Shown here: positions 20,441 through 43,776 of the stretch, one piece after another
Layout of the letters: every line of letters begins with the position of its first letter
Position numbering within the stretch: position 1 is the first letter of the stretch
Origin: an uncultured bacterium
GTDB lineage: Bacteria; Bacteroidota; Bacteroidia; Chitinophagales; Chitinophagaceae
Length of the DNA: 57,067 nt
Assembly (NCBI GenBank): GCA_903951405.1
Contig: CAJBBV010000173.1
Location: 1-57,067 of the forward strand
Direction of reading: 5' to 3'
Notes under the pieces: generated by a model
The model's input: the letters and a program-made list of their open reading frames with translations, nothing else
What the model was told of the DNA's origin: nothing
Database searches by the model: none
Program-made: the position numbers and the translations under genes

Positions 20441-20584
20441 AGGTGAGTTTTTAGGTTGTCAAATTTACAAAAAAAAGGTGGTTCTATGGATTAAATTCGA
20501 TAATAGTGCGATAAAACCAAGTATATTACTGATTGATATTTTTGTTTCCCTACTATCTACTTAAATACTTCTTATTTTTGTACT

Positions 20585-33935: not shown

Positions 33936-35687
33936 ATGAGTTTTGAAGAGTTAGGCATTGAAGAGATATTGCTCCAAGGCATTAAAGCACTTGGTTTTAC
34001 TGAACCTACACCAATACAGGAACAAGCGATACCTATTTTATTAAGTGGGACCAAAGATTTTGTGGGATTGGCTCAAACGGGCACCGGGAAAACAGCTGCA
34101 TTTGGACTTCCCCTGTTGCAATTAGTTGATTCTAAGGCTAAAACACCTGTAGCCCTGATGGTTTGTCCAACCCGTGAGTTGTGTATGCAAATCACCAAAG
34201 ATTTGATGAATTTTGGCCGGTATAAGAAAGGAACCAAAATGGTAGCGGTTTATGGTGGGGCCTCTATTTCACAGCAAATTCGTGATTTAAGGCAAGGCGC
34301 ACAAGTAGTGGTTGCTACACCAGGAAGGTTGATTGATTTGATCGAAAGGAAGGCGATTGACCTAGAAAATATTGAATATATTGTTTTAGATGAGGCTGAT
34401 GAGATGCTTAACATGGGATTCCGTGATGACATCGAATTTATCTTGAAAAATACTCCAAATAGGAAGAGTATTTGGTTATTCAGTGCTACTATGCCATCAG
34501 AAGTGAAGCAAGTGAGCAAACGCTACATGGATAAGCCCCATGAAATCACTATTGGCAAGATGAATGCGGCTAACGTGAATATTGACCATCAATATTATGT
34601 AACCTCAGGGGTTAATCGATATCAAACCCTAAAGCGAATCATTGATTTTAACCCAGGCATTTATGGGATTATTTTCACCAGGACAAAGGCTGATGCGCAA
34701 TCTATTACAGAATCACTTATTCGTGAAGGCTATGACATTGAAGCCCTTCATGGTGATTTAACCCAAGTTCAACGGGATAAAGTAATGGGTAGGTTTAGAG
34801 AAAAAAGTATTCAATTATTGATAGCTACTGATGTGGCAGCACGGGGAATTGATGTTAAAGATATCACACACGTTATTAATTATGAGCTCCCTGATGATGT
34901 AGAGGTATATACCCATAGAAGTGGCCGAACTGGTCGTGCAGGTAAGAATGGTGTTTGTGTTTCATTGGTTACATCTCGCGAACAATATAGGCTCAGGCAG
35001 ATCGAAAAATTAATTAACAATAGTTTGCACAAGATGGATATTCCATCAGGCAAAGATGTATGTCGTAAGCAGTTTTTCCATTTTATTGATAAGCTCCTCA
35101 AAGCTGATATTAGTCACGGTGAATATGAGACCTATATCCCTTTGTTGAAAGAAAAATTCGAGGATGTAACGAAAGAAGAGATTCTTCAACGTGTAGCCGC
35201 GCTTGAGTTTGATCGCTTCCTTCAGTATTATGAAAATGCTGCGGACCTCAATATGAGAGATGATAGGCGTTCAGAGAGGCAGTCTTCCTCTCGTGGCGAT
35301 TCTCGTGGAGATTCTCGGGGAGATTCTCGAGGAGACTCTCGCAATCAAGGTCGTTCGGCAGGGCGTAGCTCTTTTGGAAGAGAAGGTGGTTCTGAACGAA
35401 GAGATGGCGGATCAAGTGGGGCTGCAGGGGGCTATAAAAAACTATTTGTAAACTTAGGCACGAAAGATGGTTTTTATAAGGCTAGTTTTTTACAGTTTAT
35501 TTTAGACATGAGTGATCTCAGTAAGGATGTTTTGGGTAAGATCGACATGAAGGATATGAATAGCTGGGTAGAGATAGAAGGCGGCGCAGCAAATCAAATG
35601 ATTAAGTCACTTGATGGTAAAAAATTCAAGGGAAGAAGAATTAGGATGAATGATGCTGAAACAGGGGGCTCTAGAAATAATTATTAA
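33936..35687 (+). CDS. DEAD-box ATP-dependent RNA helicase with SRGD-repeat linker and DbpA-like RNA-binding domain
   Basis: AQTGTGKTAAFGLP, VLDEADEML, FSATMP and HRSGRTGRAG motifs; C-terminal YKKLFVNLGTKDGFYKASFLQFI...KFKGRRIRM. Confidence 0.95.
   Translation: MSFEELGIEEILLQGIKALGFTEPTPIQEQAIPILLSGTKDFVGLAQTGTGKTAAFGLPLLQLVDSKAKTPVALMVCPTRELCMQITKDLMNFGRYKKGTKMVAVYGGASISQQIRDLRQGAQVVVATPGRLIDLIERKAIDLENIEYIVLDEADEMLNMGFRDDIEFILKNTPNRKSIWLFSATMPSEVKQVSKRYMDKPHEITIGKMNAANVNIDHQYYVTSGVNRYQTLKRIIDFNPGIYGIIFTRTKADAQSITESLIREGYDIEALHGDLTQVQRDKVMGRFREKSIQLLIATDVAARGIDVKDITHVINYELPDDVEVYTHRSGRTGRAGKNGVCVSLVTSREQYRLRQIEKLINNSLHKMDIPSGKDVCRKQFFHFIDKLLKADISHGEYETYIPLLKEKFEDVTKEEILQRVAALEFDRFLQYYENAADLNMRDDRRSERQSSSRGDSRGDSRGDSRGDSRNQGRSAGRSSFGREGGSERRDGGSSGAAGGYKKLFVNLGTKDGFYKASFLQFILDMSDLSKDVLGKIDMKDMNSWVEIEGGAANQMIKSLDGKKFKGRRIRMNDAETGGSRNNY
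35289..35336 (+). repeat. Four tandem 12-bp repeats encoding (Ser-Arg-Gly-Asp)n in the helicase linker
   Basis: TCTCGTGGCGAT TCTCGTGGAGAT TCTCGGGGAGAT TCTCGAGGAGAC. Confidence 0.9.
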
Positions 35688-35692
35688 AAATA

Positions 35693-35723
35693 TTGTTTAA
35701 CTACATTCAGTTTCTTATATTTG
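35693..35723 (+). promoter_or_regulatory. Putative Bacteroidota promoter of the aromatic amino acid operon
   Basis: TTG (35693-35695), 20-nt spacer, TATATTTG (35716-35723), matching TTG-N(19-21)-TAnnTTTG. Confidence 0.65.
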
Positions 35724-35727
35724 TTTC

Positions 35728-35799
35728 ATGAATATGCCAAAGACAGCCCGTTTTTATTTTTACTACTACTTTAGCGGTAGCACGGGATCCCTTTGTTGA
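35728..35799 (+). CDS. Phe/Tyr attenuator leader peptide MNMPKTARFYFYYYFSGSTGSLC
   Basis: Manual translation: seven consecutive control codons TTT TAT TTT TAC TAC TAC TTT, followed by antiterminator and terminator and then pheA/tyrA/aro genes. Confidence 0.9.
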   Translation: MNMPKTARFYFYYYFSGSTGSLC

Positions 35800-35829
35800 A
35801 CAAATAATAACAAGATATATCAACATAAG

Positions 35830-35860
35830 AATCCCGGTAACACTACCGGGATTTTTTTTT
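35830..35860 (+). terminator. Attenuator terminator upstream of pheA
   Basis: AATCCCGGTA-ACAC-TACCGGGATT, a perfect 10-bp stem running into a 9-T tract; lies between the leader peptide and pheA. Confidence 0.93.
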
Positions 35861-35876
35861 AAATAGTAAATGAACG

Positions 35877-36767
35877 ATGTCCGAAAAGAAAAAAAATAAA
35901 GGTCAAAAGCTAGAAGAGTCTACTATGTTGGCTACTTCCAAACCTATTGCCATCCAAGGCTATGAAGGGAGTTTTCATCAAGTAGCTGCTCGGAAGTTCT
36001 TTGGAAAAAAGGTTGAAATCCTTCCGTGCGCAACGTTCATCGATCTTATTCGGGATGCATCAGATTCTAAAAAAACGAGTGGCGGTATTATGGCGATTGA
36101 AAATTCCATCGCGGGTAGTATCCTCCCCAATTATAACTTATTGCAAAAGTCATCTCTTTTTGTAGCAGGTGAGGTCTACCTCCAAATCGATCAAAATTTA
36201 ATGGTGAACCCTGGCGTAAAGTTATCTGATATCAAAGAGGTTCATTCACATCCTATGGCGCTGCAACAATGCCTTGGTTTTTTAAACAAGTATCCATGGA
36301 AATTGATTGAGACTGATGATACGGCATTGAGTGCAAAGCATGTTCACCTCAAAAAGAGTAAGCATATTGCAGCAATTGCTAGTAAACTTGCTGCTGAGAT
36401 GTTTGATCTTGAATTGATTGCTCCTAAAATCAACGACGTAAAACACAATTATACTCGTTTCTTGGTTTTGCAACAGCATCCTTCTGTTGTTGAAGGTGCA
36501 AATAAGGCATCAATCAATTTTCATACAGATCATGAGAAAGGAAGTCTTGCAAAAGTACTTGCAATTATAGCTTCTCAAGATATTAACATCAGTAAGCTAC
36601 AATCGTTTCCCATCGCCGGCAGTCAATTTAAATATGGTTTTCATGCAGATCTTGAATTTGAATCGTTAAAGCAATTCAATTCACTTCTGAAAAAGTTGAC
36701 GGCCAAAACAAAGTACATGCGTGTGCTGGGTATTTATAAAAAAGGAAAATTCAATTCAGCCTCATGA
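35877..36767 (+). CDS. pheA: Prephenate dehydratase with ACT domain
   Basis: IQGYEGSFHQVAARKFFG, GGIMAIENSIAGSILPNYNLL, HPMALQQC and NYTRFLVL motifs; C-terminal ACT (HEKGSLAKVLAIIASQDINISKLQSFPI). Confidence 0.93.
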   Translation: MSEKKKNKGQKLEESTMLATSKPIAIQGYEGSFHQVAARKFFGKKVEILPCATFIDLIRDASDSKKTSGGIMAIENSIAGSILPNYNLLQKSSLFVAGEVYLQIDQNLMVNPGVKLSDIKEVHSHPMALQQCLGFLNKYPWKLIETDDTALSAKHVHLKKSKHIAAIASKLAAEMFDLELIAPKINDVKHNYTRFLVLQQHPSVVEGANKASINFHTDHEKGSLAKVLAIIASQDINISKLQSFPIAGSQFKYGFHADLEFESLKQFNSLLKKLTAKTKYMRVLGIYKKGKFNSAS

Positions 36768-37945
36768 TACCGGTATCATCTAGATTAAATGGAATTGGAG
36801 AATATTATTTCTCTACTAAGCTTCGAGAAATCGATGAGCTTAATAAGGCAGGGCATGCTGTTATTAATTTGGGTATTGGTAGTCCTGATCTCCCACCTCA
36901 CCCATCAGTTGTAGAAGCATTACACACGGAAGCCGCAAAACAAAACACACACGCATATCAATCCTATAAAGGGTCGCCAATATTTCGAAATGCAATTTCT
37001 GCGTGGTATAAAAAATGGTATAATGTTCTTGTGAATCCTGATACCGAGGTGCTTCCCTTAATAGGAAGTAAAGAAGGCATTATGCACATATGCATGACGT
37101 ATCTTCAAGATGGCGATGCTGCCTTAGTGCCAAACCCCGGTTATCCAACATATAGCAGTGCTGTCAAGCTTTCTGGGGGAACGGTACTTTCATATAGACT
37201 TGAGTCCCAAAATAATTGGCATCCCGACTTAGCTGTTTGGAAGAAAATGATTGATGAGTATAATTCATCTGCACAAGGTGTTGTGAAAATTATTTTTCTT
37301 AATTACCCTCATATGCCTACGGGGCAACTCCCCGATAAAAAATTATTGAGCGAAATCATTGCGTTTGCAAAGCAGGAAAACGTAATGATAGTACATGATA
37401 ATCCATACAGTTTTATTTTGAATGATTATCCTGCAAGTTTATTGGAGTTTGATGTGAATAAAGAAGTAGTTATCGAGCTCAATTCGTTGAGCAAATCTCA
37501 CAATATGGCCGGTTGGCGTGTAGGGATGATTGTTGCTTCTGCTGAACATATCAATGCCATCTTAAGATTTAAAAGCAATATGGATAGTGGCATGTTTTTA
37601 CCTGTTCAACTTGCAGCATCTAAAGCATTAGAGTTGGGTAAAGATTGGTTTGATGATATGAATCAGATTTACGCAACTAGAAAAAAGTTGGCCTGTGAGT
37701 TACTTGATTTACTTGATTGTGCTTATTCTAAAGATCAAGTTGGAATGTTTGTTTGGGCCGCCATTCCTAAGCATATTAAGTCGGGTTATGAGCTTAGTGA
37801 TAAAGTATTGAATGAGGCGCGTGTGTTCATCACGCCCGGAGGGATTTTTGGGGATGCAGGTGATGCATTTGTTCGGGTGAGTTTATGTAGCAAAGAAGAA
37901 GTTTTACAAGAAGCTATTAATAGAGTGAAGAAATTGAAACAATAG
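36764..37945 (+). CDS. Class I/II pyridoxal-phosphate aminotransferase (aspartate/aromatic type)
   Basis: INLGIGSPDLPPHPSVVEAL, NPGYPTYSSAV and ELNSLSKSHNMAGWRVGMIV motifs. 4-nt overlap with pheA. Confidence 0.92.
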   Translation: MIPVSSRLNGIGEYYFSTKLREIDELNKAGHAVINLGIGSPDLPPHPSVVEALHTEAAKQNTHAYQSYKGSPIFRNAISAWYKKWYNVLVNPDTEVLPLIGSKEGIMHICMTYLQDGDAALVPNPGYPTYSSAVKLSGGTVLSYRLESQNNWHPDLAVWKKMIDEYNSSAQGVVKIIFLNYPHMPTGQLPDKKLLSEIIAFAKQENVMIVHDNPYSFILNDYPASLLEFDVNKEVVIELNSLSKSHNMAGWRVGMIVASAEHINAILRFKSNMDSGMFLPVQLAASKALELGKDWFDDMNQIYATRKKLACELLDLLDCAYSKDQVGMFVWAAIPKHIKSGYELSDKVLNEARVFITPGGIFGDAGDAFVRVSLCSKEEVLQEAINRVKKLKQ

Positions 37946-38010: not shown

Positions 38011-38865
38011 ATGAATGTAAATAAAAAAAATATTGCCATAGTTGGAGTGGGGCTAATTGGCGGCTCACTTGCCCTTCAGTGTAAGAAGAAGGGCATATCC
38101 AATCATGTTGTTGGTATTGACAGTAATCCACTTCATGCAGAGCAAGCTCTTTCACTGCATCTTGTTGATGAGATGTTGAGTATGCAAGAGGCAGTCTCAA
38201 AGTCAGATGTTATCCTCGTTGCTATACCTGTTGACAGTATGGTTGCGCTGGTGCCTAAAATACTTGACTTAGTTGATCAACAACTAGTCATTGATCTAGG
38301 CTCTACAAAAAGCTTGTTGATTGATGCGGTGAGAGACCATCCAAAAAGAAGACAGTTTGTCGCTGCACATCCGATGTGGGGAACAGAATATAGTGGGCCT
38401 ACTGCAGCGGTAGAAGGTGCATTCGAAGATAAATCAGTGATTATTTGTGATGCTAAGGATAGTAGTGAAGAGGCCATTGAATATGTTAAATTCCTTTTCG
38501 GCAAGTTGAAGATGCGCATTTTTGAGATGGATGCCCATGATCACGATCTTCATGCTGCATATGTTAGTCATATCTCTCATATCACGTCATTTGCATTGGC
38601 TAATACAGTCCTTGAAAAGGAAAAAGAAGATAGTGCCATTTTTGAAATGGCTAGTGCTGGATTTGAAAGTACAGTAAGGTTGGCAAAGAGTAGCCCTGAT
38701 ATGTGGACACCGATTTTAAAGCAAAACAAGGATAATATCCTGGATGTATTGAATGAGCACATCATGCAGCTAAGAAAATTTAAATCTTGTTTAGAGAAAG
38801 AGAACTGGGATTATCTTCACGAGTTAATGGAAAAAGCAAATCAGATCCGTAGGATCATTCATTAG
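38011..38865 (+). CDS. tyrA: Prephenate dehydrogenase
   Basis: IAIVGVGLIGGSLALQCKKKG, DLGSTKS, HPMWGTEYSGP and HDHDLHAAYVSHISHI motifs. Confidence 0.93.
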   Translation: MNVNKKNIAIVGVGLIGGSLALQCKKKGISNHVVGIDSNPLHAEQALSLHLVDEMLSMQEAVSKSDVILVAIPVDSMVALVPKILDLVDQQLVIDLGSTKSLLIDAVRDHPKRRQFVAAHPMWGTEYSGPTAAVEGAFEDKSVIICDAKDSSEEAIEYVKFLFGKLKMRIFEMDAHDHDLHAAYVSHISHITSFALANTVLEKEKEDSAIFEMASAGFESTVRLAKSSPDMWTPILKQNKDNILDVLNEHIMQLRKFKSCLEKENWDYLHELMEKANQIRRIIH

Positions 38866-38905: not shown

Positions 38906-39994
38906 ATGGAAACAACACAAGAAAGTCAACAATCAATTGTAAAAGCTGCTTGGAATAAACGTCCTCTTATTATTTCCGGCCCTTGCAGTGCAGAAACTGA
39001 AGAGCAGGTACTAGCCACTGCACAACGACTTGCCAATACAGGTAAAGTGGATATGTTGCGTGCAGGTATTTGGAAGCCAAGAACCAAGCCTGGCATGTTT
39101 GAAGGTATTGGGGCAAAAGGGTTGCCTTGGTTGCAGCAAGCAAAAAAACTCACAGGATTGCCTACAACTGTAGAAGTGGCAACGGGAAAGCAAGTTGAAG
39201 ACGCGCTCACATTTGACGTAGATGTTTTATGGGTTGGTGCTAGAACAACTGTGAATCCATTCAGCGTTCAAGAGGTAGCTGATGCACTTCGTGGTGTTGA
39301 TGTTCCTGTATTGATAAAAAATCCAATCAATCCTGATCTTGAATTATGGCAGGGTGCTGTTGAGCGTGTTGCACGTGCGGGCATAAAAGATATTGGACTT
39401 ATCCATCGTGGATTTTCTTCATATGGCAACACTGAATTTAGGAATGCTCCGATGTGGCATTTAGCGATTGAGATGAAACGCAGAATGCCTGGAACACCAA
39501 TCATTAATGACCCTTCACATATTTGTGGTCGAAGAGACATACTTCTCGCAACAGCTCAAAAAGCAATTGACCTGGACTTTGATGGTTTGATGATTGAAAG
39601 TCATATCGACCCAGATAATGCATGGAGTGATGCTAAGCAACAAATCACTCCTGAGCGTCTTGCAGAAATGTTAGATGAGATCGTATGGAGAAGAGAAGAT
39701 GTTTCATCAGAAACATTTCATATTGCACTTGATAAGTTGAGGGAACAAATCAATCATATCGACGATGAGTTGATGCAGTTGATTTCACAACGGATGCATA
39801 TCGCAGAAAAAATAGGCACTTACAAGAAAAATAATAATGTAACTATTTTACAAGCAAATCGTTGGAATGAAATTTTAGATAAAGCGGTAAAGAAGGCAGA
39901 TAAGCTTTCGCTTAGTGAGGAGTTTGTAACCCGTTACATGGATGCAATTCATATGGAAAGTATCAATAGGCAGAATAAAATCATGAACGACTAA
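38906..39994 (+). CDS. Bifunctional DAHP synthase / chorismate mutase (AroQ-type CM domain at C-terminus)
   Basis: ISGPCSAETEEQVLATAQ, RAGIWKPRTKPGMFEGIG and NDPSHICGRRD; then ALDKLREQINHIDDELMQLISQRMHIAEKIGTYKK (CM). Confidence 0.93.
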   Translation: METTQESQQSIVKAAWNKRPLIISGPCSAETEEQVLATAQRLANTGKVDMLRAGIWKPRTKPGMFEGIGAKGLPWLQQAKKLTGLPTTVEVATGKQVEDALTFDVDVLWVGARTTVNPFSVQEVADALRGVDVPVLIKNPINPDLELWQGAVERVARAGIKDIGLIHRGFSSYGNTEFRNAPMWHLAIEMKRRMPGTPIINDPSHICGRRDILLATAQKAIDLDFDGLMIESHIDPDNAWSDAKQQITPERLAEMLDEIVWRREDVSSETFHIALDKLREQINHIDDELMQLISQRMHIAEKIGTYKKNNNVTILQANRWNEILDKAVKKADKLSLSEEFVTRYMDAIHMESINRQNKIMND

Positions 39995-40017: not shown

Positions 40018-40434
40018 ATGGTACAGGTTTTTTTATATGTGCACATCATTTGGTCAACTCGAAACAGGGAAAGTGTATTAACGAGGCCAGTAAGGGTTGT
40101 TCTATTTAGCCATTTAAAAAAACTAGCAGAGGAAAAAGGAATTCATTTATTGGAAGTGAATGGAGCCGAAGATCATGTTCATCTTTTATTGCAGTTGCAT
40201 CCTGCCCAGAATTTATCTCAGGTCATGAGGTTGTTGCGTTCTGAGTCTTCCGAATGGACAAACACCACTCAATTAATAAAGGGTGGGTTTGACTGGTCTG
40301 ATGAAATCATTGCTTATTCAGTGAGTCCGGGTTCACTTGCACAAGTGACATCCTTTATTGAAAGGCAAGAAGAGTATCATTTGACTAAGACGTTTCAAAC
40401 AGAAATCGAAGTTTTTTTAAAAACAGATAAGTAA
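40018..40434 (+). CDS. IS200-like Y1-type HUH transposase homologue, likely domesticated (catalytic Tyr appears replaced by Phe)
   Basis: VHIIWSTRNRESVLT, HUH motif EDHVHLLLQL, MRLLRSESSEW and SFIERQEEYHLTKTFQ, where family members usually show YI.NQEEHH. No recognisable flanking inverted repeats. Confidence 0.8.
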   Translation: MVQVFLYVHIIWSTRNRESVLTRPVRVVLFSHLKKLAEEKGIHLLEVNGAEDHVHLLLQLHPAQNLSQVMRLLRSESSEWTNTTQLIKGGFDWSDEIIAYSVSPGSLAQVTSFIERQEEYHLTKTFQTEIEVFLKTDK

Positions 40435-40438
40435 TAGT

Positions 40439-41482
40439 ATGACGAGTATGAAAAAAATGCGTTTTCAATTTTCACAGAAAATAGTGGATTGCTACTTTGA
40501 TGCATCGTTCAAACGTCTTGAAGAGATTGTAAACAAAGAGAAGGCAATCATTATTACTGATGAAAATGTTTTTGTTGCGCATAAAAGTAAATTCAAGAAG
40601 TGGAATGTAATCACCTTGAAAGCTGGTGAGGAGTATAAGGTTCAGGCTACGGTGGACGCCGTCATTGCTCAGTTGATAGAATTTTCTGCAGATAGACAAA
40701 CGACATTAATTGGTATTGGAGGGGGAGTAATTACAGACCTTACCGGCTATATCGCTTCGGTATACATGAGGGGCATTGAGTTTGGTTTTGTGCCTACATC
40801 ATTATTAGCTATGGTAGATGCTTCTATTGGAGGTAAAAACGGTATCGATGTTGGCGAATATAAAAATATGGTGGGTATCATACGTCAACCCTCTTTCTTG
40901 TTTTATGATCTTGATTTCTTGAAAACATTACCAGATTCAGAATGGAGTAATGGGTTTGCTGAGATCATCAAGCATGCTTGTATATTGGATAGCAAAACGT
41001 TTTCATTGTTAGAGAAAAGCAATATTGCTAAAGTGAAGCGTGACAAATCCCTTCTTAGGGATATTATTCTGCGCAATGTAAAATTGAAAGTGGGTGTTGT
41101 TAAAGCGGATGAATTTGAAACAGGCAATAGAAAGTTGCTCAATTTCGGTCATACCCTTGGACATGCCTTGGAAACTCAATATGAATTGACGCATGGTCAA
41201 GCTGTTTCATTAGGAATGATTTTCGCTTCATGGCTTTCAGAAAAAGCAGTGGGACTAAAAGGGGCAGATAGAATAGAAAAAGTATTGATAGAATATGGAT
41301 TACCGACCAGAGGAAAATTTGATGTAAAAAAAGTGTATAATGTCTTGAAGATGGATAAGAAGCGTGTGAACAAAGACATGAGCTATATTTTATTGCAAAA
41401 AATAGGAACTGGTTTAATACAAAAGATTTCTGTTGATGCACTGCATGAACATTTAGTTGAGTTTAATAACATGATTAAGTAA
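40439..41482 (+). CDS. aroB: 3-dehydroquinate synthase
   Basis: GIGGGVITDLTGYIASVYMRGIEFGFVPTSLLAMVDASIGGKNGID and LLNFGHTLGHALE. The start could be 40448. Confidence 0.96.
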   Translation: MTSMKKMRFQFSQKIVDCYFDASFKRLEEIVNKEKAIIITDENVFVAHKSKFKKWNVITLKAGEEYKVQATVDAVIAQLIEFSADRQTTLIGIGGGVITDLTGYIASVYMRGIEFGFVPTSLLAMVDASIGGKNGIDVGEYKNMVGIIRQPSFLFYDLDFLKTLPDSEWSNGFAEIIKHACILDSKTFSLLEKSNIAKVKRDKSLLRDIILRNVKLKVGVVKADEFETGNRKLLNFGHTLGHALETQYELTHGQAVSLGMIFASWLSEKAVGLKGADRIEKVLIEYGLPTRGKFDVKKVYNVLKMDKKRVNKDMSYILLQKIGTGLIQKISVDALHEHLVEFNNMIK

Positions 41483-41490
41483 TAAGTAAA

Positions 41491-42771
41491 ATGAAGGCAA
41501 TAGTTCATCCATCTGTATTGCATGGGAATATTAGTGCGCCAAGATCTAAAAGTGATATGCAGCGCGCTTGTGCCGCTGCATTGCTTCACGTTGGGAAAAC
41601 ATTGATATATACTCCAGGTAATTCAAATGATGATCTTGCAGCAATAGATGTGATTCAAAAACTTGGGGCAGTAATTATTGAGCATACAGATCATCTTGAA
41701 ATATCAAGTGTAGGTGTTATGCCCGTTAATGATACTGTATTTTGTGGTGAAAGTGGATTGGGAATAAGAATGTTCACTCCCATTGCTTCAATAAGTAGTC
41801 AGCAACTTACGTTGACTGGTTCAGGATCATTAATGAATCGACCAATGCATTTCTTTGATGAGATATTTCCAAAATTGGGTATTACTATTTCGTCTAACAA
41901 TGGAAAGCTTCCTATTCAGATTAAGGGGCCGTTGGTGCCTTCTACTATTGAGGTTGACGGGAGTTTGAGTTCTCAGTTTTTAACTGGACTTTTATTCGCT
42001 TTTTCAGCTTCAAATGCATCTGACGTTACCATAAAAGTAAAAGACTTAAAAAGTAGGCCATATATTGATATGACATTACAAGTGATTAAGGCATTTGGGA
42101 TGAAGCTTCCTATAGTCGATTCCTATGAGACGTTTTCATTTGGTCCTGCAACAACAATTTCTTCAACAGATACTATTCAGTATACCGTTGAGGGTGATTG
42201 GAGTGGAGCATCGTTTCTATTTGTGGCAGGGGCAATTTCTGCTGAGGTTGTTATTGAAGGAATGAATCCTGATTCTGTTCAAGCAGATAAGCAAATACTA
42301 AAGGCAATACAATCCTGTGGCGCACACTTGATTTATAATGATGGGCGATATGTGGTTTCTCCGGGTGAACTTGTTGCATTTGAATTTGATGCAACAGAAT
42401 GTCCTGATTTATTTCCACCATTGGTTTCGTTGGCTGCCTATTGCAAAGGCATAACAAAAATTAAGGGTGCTAAGAGATTAACACATAAAGAAAGCGATAG
42501 GGCCTTAACACTTCAGGATGTCTTTGGTAAAATGGGCATAAAAATTGACTTGGACGATGATGTCATGTATGTTCATGGTGGCAGCGTTTTGAATACAGCT
42601 GAGGTTCATTCTCATCATGATCATCGAATTGCCATGGCTGCTGCGGTTGCTGCATTGTGTGCAGATGGACCTGTGATTATAAACGATGCGGAAGCTATCA
42701 ATAAATCGTATCCTGATTTTTATCATCATATGATTTCACTCGGCGCTAAAATTACTTTAGAAACGAATTAA
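41491..42771 (+). CDS. aroA: 3-phosphoshikimate 1-carboxyvinyltransferase (EPSP synthase)
   Basis: SAPRSKSDMQRACAAALL, SGLGIRMFTPIA, DGSLSSQFLTGLLFA and HHDHRIAMAAAVAAL motifs. Confidence 0.95.
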   Translation: MKAIVHPSVLHGNISAPRSKSDMQRACAAALLHVGKTLIYTPGNSNDDLAAIDVIQKLGAVIIEHTDHLEISSVGVMPVNDTVFCGESGLGIRMFTPIASISSQQLTLTGSGSLMNRPMHFFDEIFPKLGITISSNNGKLPIQIKGPLVPSTIEVDGSLSSQFLTGLLFAFSASNASDVTIKVKDLKSRPYIDMTLQVIKAFGMKLPIVDSYETFSFGPATTISSTDTIQYTVEGDWSGASFLFVAGAISAEVVIEGMNPDSVQADKQILKAIQSCGAHLIYNDGRYVVSPGELVAFEFDATECPDLFPPLVSLAAYCKGITKIKGAKRLTHKESDRALTLQDVFGKMGIKIDLDDDVMYVHGGSVLNTAEVHSHHDHRIAMAAAVAALCADGPVIINDAEAINKSYPDFYHHMISLGAKITLETN

Positions 42772-42780
42772 ATAATAGTC

Positions 42781-43776
42781 ATGAACCATTTCGGAAAAAT
42801 TTTTTCAGTATCTATTTTTGGTGAATCACATGGAGAAGGTTTAGGCGTAGTGATTGATGGTTGTCCTGCTGGTATGCCATTAGCAGTAGAAGATTTTATT
42901 GTGGATACAGAAAGAAGAAAAGGCGGTATACAAAAAGGGACAACGCCAAGACAAGAAGAAGATTTACCGATATTTAAAAGTGGCGTATTTAATGGTAAAA
43001 CTACGGGTGCTCCATTGATGTTACTTTTTGAAAATAAAAATACGCGATCTGGTGATTATGAGAAACAGCGTGCTGTTCCAAGGCCAGGGCATGCTGATTT
43101 TGTTGCCAACCGAAAATTTGGAGGGTTTGAAGATTTTAGAGGTGGTGGGCATTTTAGTGGACGACTTACACTTTGCCTTGTAGCGGCTGGTGTGGTAGCT
43201 AAAAAAATATTGAAAGGAATAACAGTTATTTCGGAAATCGTTTCGATAGGTGGTGAGTCTTCAGTTGAACTTGGATTACAGAAAGCGATAGATCAAAAGG
43301 ATTCTGTTGGTGGTATCGTGGAGTGTAAAGTGAATGGATTGCCGTTGGGTTTAGGTGAGCCATTTTTTGATTCTGCAGAGTCGCTCATTTCACATGCTGT
43401 ATTTGCTATCCCAGCGGTTCGAGGCATAGAATTCGGTACAGGATTCAACGCTGCTTCTATGTTTGGAGTAGATCATAATGATGCAATAGAAAATAAAGAT
43501 GGTAAAACAACTACAAACCATGCAGGTGGAATTATAGGGGGCATTACCAACGGTAATGAGGTTGTTTTTAGAATTGCCATTAAGCCAACTTCTTCTACTC
43601 CCAAAGAACAACATACATACAATTGGGAAACCGATGCCATGGAAAACTTTTCAGTGCGAGGAAGGCATGATTTATGCATTGCGTTAAGAGTTCCACCAGT
43701 ACTTGAAGCGGTTACGGCATTTGTATTTGCTGACCTCATGTTGCGGTCGCAACATATAAAACCCGTATATTCATAA
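42781..43776 (+). CDS. aroC: Chorismate synthase
   Basis: FGESHGEGLGVVIDGCPAGM, RPGHADF, FRGGGHFSGRLT and GRHDLCIALRVPPVLEA motifs. Confidence 0.97.
   Translation: MNHFGKIFSVSIFGESHGEGLGVVIDGCPAGMPLAVEDFIVDTERRKGGIQKGTTPRQEEDLPIFKSGVFNGKTTGAPLMLLFENKNTRSGDYEKQRAVPRPGHADFVANRKFGGFEDFRGGGHFSGRLTLCLVAAGVVAKKILKGITVISEIVSIGGESSVELGLQKAIDQKDSVGGIVECKVNGLPLGLGEPFFDSAESLISHAVFAIPAVRGIEFGTGFNAASMFGVDHNDAIENKDGKTTTNHAGGIIGGITNGNEVVFRIAIKPTSSTPKEQHTYNWETDAMENFSVRGRHDLCIALRVPPVLEAVTAFVFADLMLRSQHIKPVYS

Follow-up and report, generated by a model that had tools for sequence, protein, structure and literature searches.

The window analysed here, a whole stretch of 57,067 nt, comes from a 2.46-Mb metagenome-assembled genome whose nearest named pheA relatives are Chitinophagaceae. 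It carries a cluster of aromatic amino acid genes, preceded on the same strand by a DEAD-box helicase gene that ends at 35687, 140 nt before a hairpin in front of pheA. The features of the leader and of the genes after it are as follows.

35693 to 35695, forward strand: TTG within a -33-like element that lies 20 nt upstream of the -7 box
35716 to 35723, forward strand: TATATTTG, matching the -7 box of Bacteroidota sigma-A, TAnnTTTG; the ATG follows after 4 nt
35728, forward strand: the A of the leader AUG, at which transcription is predicted to start given the placement of the box at -12 to -5
35728 to 35799, forward strand: leader peptide ORF MNMPKTARFYFYYYFSGSTGSLC (ATG at 35728, TGA at 35797-35799), conserved in relatives
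35738 to 35751, forward strand: region 1, CAAAG (35738-35742) and CCCGU (35747-35751), just upstream of the control codons
35752 to 35772, forward strand: run of seven control codons, Phe Tyr Phe Tyr Tyr Tyr Phe, read from the sequence
35775 to 35799, forward strand: region 2, CGGUAG (35775-35780), CGGGAU (35783-35788) and CUUUGUUGA (35791-35799), the antiterminator strand in the constrained fold
35820 to 35836, forward strand: region 3, UCAACA..AAG (35820-35829) and AUCCCG (35831-35836), which pairs with region 2 and supplies the 5' arm of the terminator
35827 to 35860, forward strand: intrinsic terminator 3:4, 13-pair stem with ACAC loop (hairpin 35827-35856) and nine T (35852-35860)
35830 to 35839 and 35844 to 35853, forward strand: terminator arms AATCCCGGTA and TACCGGGATT, read from the sequence
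35843 to 35848, forward strand: CUACCG, in the loop and 3' arm, forming the outer antiterminator helix with 35775-35780
35877 to 36767, forward strand: pheA, prephenate dehydratase, the first regulated gene (PF00800, E 3.5e-55)
36764 to 37945, forward strand: class I/II aminotransferase (PF00155)
38011 to 38865, forward strand: tyrA, prephenate dehydrogenase (PF02153 and PF20463)
38906 to 39994, forward strand: DAHP synthase-chorismate mutase fusion (PF00793 and PF01817)
40439 to 43776, forward strand: aroB, aroA and aroC (PF01761, PF00275, PF01264)

The Pfam matches uphold the gene calls for pheA, the aminotransferase, tyrA and DAHP synthase-chorismate mutase. Among relatives with enough sequence, an aminotransferase gene lies downstream of pheA in 71/71 and tyrA in 69/71. 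It is possible that aroB, aroA and aroC belong to the same transcript as the pheA operon. An ORF of the IS200-like Y1 transposase family (40018-40434, forward strand; PF01797) separates the DAHP synthase gene from aroB and may be a mobile or domesticated element within the aromatic cluster.

The leader ORF and its seven consecutive Phe/Tyr codons agree base for base with the initial annotation of this DNA. A second in-frame ATG is present at 35734; the first, at 35728, fits the conserved promoter spacing better. When the 450 nt upstream of pheA were dinucleotide-shuffled, an ATG-started short ORF with at least 7/8 aromatic codons arose in 0 of 2,000 shuffles and one with at least 6/8 in five of 2,000, and the aromatic leader ORF is not due to chance. 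The genome has 28 matches to other Phe/Tyr-run sites, compared with 24 for the reversed pattern, and among its Phe/Tyr-run sites a promoter box just before the ATG is found only at the pheA leader.

The conservation of these features is a matter of direct observation. We surveyed 131 distinct pheA-upstream regions of relatives, calling a leader where an ATG-started ORF had at least 6/8 aromatic codons, and found one in 117. Cultured species represented in the survey include Sediminibacterium ginsengisoli, Filimonas zeae and Hydrotalea flava. Restricting the comparison to regions of at least 300 nt, this level was reached by 114 of 123 real regions versus 12 of 1,230 dinucleotide shuffles. Most of the 14 regions without a called leader end at contig ends or miss just the ATG, and the leader appears to be truly absent in five relatives with enough upstream sequence (L075, L084, L092, L148 and L150). 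Phe and Tyr codons are both present in 83/83 non-redundant leaders, in a codon-periodic run whose only common codons are TTT, TTC, TAT and TAC, and the distance from run to terminator is almost constant (quartiles 58-63 nt). The mixed codons fit an operon with tyrA downstream, as first proposed. The C-terminus of the leader peptide is conserved by clade (LLLLK, VVFAKA, GSLC; 35781-35799 in the window, and in relatives), which may reflect RNA pairing and not peptide function. In 60 stretches sampled from a phylum-wide search, aromatic leaders precede pheA in many other Bacteroidota families and in some there are none. Five loci from other families of the same order (L142, L144, L145, L147 and L149) have shorter leaders with the stop codon upstream of region 2, so that a terminating ribosome would mask region 2 from just upstream.

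The terminator, with its nine T and its end 16 nt before pheA, is exactly as previously described and was recovered by a terminator scan; the other pairings, too, lie where they had been placed. The 149-nt leader folds at -31.1 kcal/mol versus -21.3 for shuffles (z -3.0), and leaders of 116 of the 117 relatives pass a terminator rule that requires the T run. Column-shuffled and register-slid controls were used for the 2:3 and 3:4 helices. In a 41-sequence alignment, 95.5% of the 3:4 cells are standard pairs, compared with 16-64% when slid, and 17 cells are double-changed. For the 2:3 helix, 87.8% of cells pair versus 27-54% when slid, and the covariation score of each helix was reached by 0 of 500 shuffles. 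Aligning relatives in search of covarying 2:3 and 3:4 helices was a check proposed in the initial annotation, which named loss of the leader ORF or helices among relatives as evidence against its reading; pairing proved far above the controls, with covariation in both helices. In 108 of 112 loci the 2:3 duplex was more stable than its shuffles, with a median z of -4.8. The short core of 2:3 was put to a swap test, which discriminated only in part because most clades share GCCGGGA.

In the window the antiterminator comprises three helices: (i) CGGUAG:CUACCG, (ii) CGGGAU:AUCCCG and (iii) CUU.UGUUGA:UCAACA.AAG. The last of these, the middle helix, is new, having been overlooked at first reading, and largely accounts for the conserved UCAACAUAA before the terminator. 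Pairing of region 2 with both terminator arms, as originally put forward, is the predicted lowest-energy structure of the stalled state in the window. The two halves of that proposal differ in reach: the inner core CGGGAU:AUCCCG is general, but the outer CGGUAG:CUACCG helix is apparently confined, judging by eye, to the closest relatives.

A further helix, 1:2, joins codons upstream of the run to sequence downstream of it and would act as a protector helix that the stalled ribosome masks. It had been given as a weaker pairing, CCCGU:ACGGG, which is present at that site, but the helix is longer than noted and takes in CAAAG:CUUUG too; with 35782-35795, duplex prediction gives -12.7 kcal/mol in the window. 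The duplex z fell below -1.64 in 75 of 112 loci, and 47 of 83 ranked in the best quarter of a swap test. When the register was held fixed, covariation did not beat shuffles; clades use different registers (CAAAAGCA:UGCUUUUG in one, CAAAUACU:AGUAUUUG in another). Taken together, these comparisons lend moderate support to a putative 1:2 helix.

Switching was modelled by masking the first codons of the run plus 12 nt beyond for a stalled ribosome, and the stop codon plus 11 nt beyond for one at the stop, both footprints being assumptions. Alternative-structure folding, another of the checks originally suggested, predicted the antiterminator in the stalled state and the terminator with the ribosome at the stop or absent. 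In the window, the constrained stalled fold preferred the antiterminator (-21.4 kcal/mol), with a terminator probability of 0.19, compared with 0.98 with the ribosome at the stop and 0.98 with no ribosome; median values over 112 loci were 0.40, 1.0 and 0.98, respectively. Before arm 4 is made, capture of region 3 was greater with the ribosome stalled than with it at the stop codon in 110 of 112 loci, and region 2 still captures region 3 in the ribosome-free RNA model.

The locus thus has sequence features of an attenuator, namely a leader ORF with a run of product codons, an intrinsic terminator before the first gene and a mutually exclusive antiterminator. Leader conservation, helix pairing above controls and the predicted fold switch all support the original reading as a Phe/Tyr ribosome-stalling attenuator. 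We consider it very likely (a probability of roughly 0.9) that the element is a ribosome-mediated transcription attenuator of the pheA operon with ribosome loading at the 5' AUG. The leaderless start, the stalling of the ribosome and read-through are steps that we infer. In this working model, RNA polymerase would initiate at the leader AUG or within a base of it and the 5' AUG would be loaded directly by a ribosome. A shortage of charged Phe-tRNA or Tyr-tRNA would stall the ribosome in the seven-codon run, where it would cover region 1 and leave region 2 free to pair with region 3; the terminator would then be blocked, and pheA, the aminotransferase gene, tyrA and the DAHP synthase gene would be transcribed. 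With both amino acids ample, the ribosome would reach the UGA, which overlaps region 2, and hide region 2, so that the 3:4 terminator would form and transcription would stop 16 nt upstream of pheA. Failing translation, 1:2 pairing would likewise lead to termination.

The initial annotation had missed the Bacteroidota -7 box and hence the predicted start at the AUG. In Flavobacterium the TAnnTTTG box lies at -12 to -5 (PMC9723704), and with TATATTTG 4 nt before the ATG this sets +1 at position 35728, the A of the leader AUG; the pheA leader mRNA is accordingly predicted to be leaderless, starting at that A. T-rich TTTG/TTTT is enriched at the -33-like distance in aligned leaders, the Bacteroides -33 consensus being TTTG (PMC7366714). 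A scan for E. coli type promoters gave no match, as is to be expected in Bacteroidota. Of 117 relatives, 102 have TAnnTTTG no more than 40 nt from the leader ATG, whereas the background density is 6 boxes per 23,273 positions, about 1 in 4,000. A slightly relaxed box is 3-10 nt before the ATG in 99 of 110 Chitinophagaceae-type leaders and 4-8 nt before it in 94 of them, and the latter spacing predicts a 5' untranslated region of 0-4 nt. A box within 10 nt of the first ATG was found for 8 of 258 long ORFs in 395 kb of genome, and of the leaderless short ORFs scanned in 395 kb only the pheA leader is then followed by a terminator. Three long ORFs in the window, at 20584 (forward), 9097 (reverse) and 29885 (reverse), have a -7 box 4-6 nt before the first ATG and are candidate leaderless genes. 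About 3.7% of 5' untranslated regions are shorter than 10 nt in B. thetaiotaomicron (PMC7366714), and leaderless mRNAs make up 5.5% in F. psychrophilum (PMC9723704).

A functional attenuator might instead be transcribed from another promoter that gives a normal 5' untranslated region, in which case translation would not be leaderless. We regard this as unlikely, although it is the alternative to which we give most weight: the start was placed from a motif, the box, where found in other Bacteroidota families, is mostly 15-32 nt from the leader ATG, and seven Chitinophagaceae-type leaders have no recognisable box within 45 nt. Arguing against it are the 4-8 nt spacing and the low chance density of the box, as well as the His leaders described below, in which the spacing is exactly 4 nt in 11/11 among those listed and, in a separate search, 4 nt in all cognate leaders but one.

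Termination would also free a short RNA, leaderless and some 130 nt long, and S. meliloti trpL provides a precedent for action in trans (PMC7298713). That the terminated RNA or the peptide is mainly trans-acting here, like Sinorhizobium rnTrpL and peTrpL, seems to us very improbable, as there is no known target and conservation tracks the geometry of the cis switch and the pheA-tyrA context. Less probable still is control of pheA translation, by reinitiation or start masking, in place of transcription; the hairpin does end just 16 nt from the pheA start, but the start codon is outside it and the nine uridines that follow have counterparts in relatives generally (116/117 under the T-requiring rule). 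The least probable alternative, that the hairpin merely ends the nearby same-strand helicase gene and the leader ORF is there by coincidence, draws on that gene's position 140 nt upstream but leaves unexplained the promoter match and conserved aromatic ORF in between, the covariation of the hairpin with region 2 inside the leader ORF and the lack of a helicase homologue upstream of pheA in some relatives (L069, L085, L097).

The attenuator with a leaderless Phe/Tyr leader that we favor at pheA may have counterparts elsewhere. Upstream of hisG in the same genome (L158, contig C54, reverse strand of the locus), TAAATTTG-CAAC-ATG starts the His leader MLANTYFHHHYLQAR, and a hairpin with a T run lies between this leader and hisG; TAAATTTG is exactly 4 nt before the ATG, and the arrangement is the same in relatives. 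The hisG operon is thus predicted to be preceded by a His leader that is likewise leaderless and built to the same design. In some relatives (L264-L267, L271), leaders with Trp runs such as INNNWWW occur upstream of trpE, and a candidate leader before the genome's own trpE (L279), MITINISNNSWHTYSSLG, has a single Trp and a terminator after it. A strict-box search before trpE and homoserine dehydrogenase yielded no convincing leaderless Trp or Thr leader. We lean towards the view that leaderless leader peptides control amino acid operons throughout the Chitinophagaceae (Phe/Tyr at pheA-tyrA, His at hisG and possibly Trp at trpE).

Ribosome-mediated attenuation needs close coupling of transcription and translation, a subject that has received little attention in Bacteroidota. 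Conservation of an attenuator in over 100 genomes is indirect evidence for such coupling in this phylum and makes it directly testable; family-wide leaderless leaders, if real, would imply that the first ribosome is close behind RNA polymerase. To our knowledge, Chitinophagaceae, like other Bacteroidota, are without Shine-Dalgarno-led initiation, and a leaderless leader ORF would neatly solve the problem of loading a ribosome quickly without such sites.

At the gathering threshold, Rfam gave no match in the leader. Membership of the Phe_leader family (RF01859) was rejected, the score being 23.6 bits and the cut-off 55; with the threshold loosened, the Leu, Phe and Trp leaders reached 23-24 bits, well short of their cut-offs of 41-55, and Thr_leader and Leu_leader scored far below cut-off. 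The element, being missing from Rfam, would make a new family for annotation. It resembles the enterobacterial pheA leader (RF01859) in its leader ORF with aromatic codons, its alternative helices (three if the putative 1:2 helix is counted) and the intrinsic terminator before pheA. The E. coli pheA leader, however, has control codons for Phe only and a transcript with a 5' untranslated region, whereas here Phe and Tyr are mixed, tyrA is in the operon and the start is predicted to be leaderless. Mixed control codons have a parallel in E. coli thrABC and ilvGMEDA, where the codons match two or more products of the pathway under control, although the amino acids differ.

The first descriptions of leader peptide attenuation came from Proteobacteria. 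A 2010 paper gave it as known only there and in Actinobacteria, and added a new case from Firmicutes (PMC2965389). There is precedent in Bacteroidota: a 2021 study of F. psychrophilum reported strong indications of leader peptide attenuation ahead of amino acid operons, together with a structured pheA 5' element without Rfam match that is conserved in Flavobacteriaceae (PMC9723704). Those elements share with ours the phylum and an attenuation-like arrangement at amino acid operons; the main text of that study gives no anatomy, and the other-family pheA leaders that we surveyed differ from ours in mostly having the -7 box, where there is one, 15-32 nt upstream. The leaderless design predicted here has its precedent in the S. 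meliloti trpL/trpE(G) attenuator, whose trpL transcript starts with the leader AUG (PMC7298713), although that system is alphaproteobacterial, uses Trp codons and serves another operon. The description of our element as the classic his/trp/phe architecture therefore stands as to attenuator type but needs adjusting, in that the leader is leaderless by prediction and the mechanism had already been inferred in Flavobacteriaceae (PMC9723704). In the mostly open-access literature searched, we found no description in Chitinophagaceae and none of the combination of leaderless start, mixed Phe/Tyr codons, multi-part antiterminator and Chitinophagaceae-wide conservation. Attenuation of this kind is already known in Bacteroidota; what is new is the leaderless, mixed Phe/Tyr form predicted here, its anatomy and its breadth.
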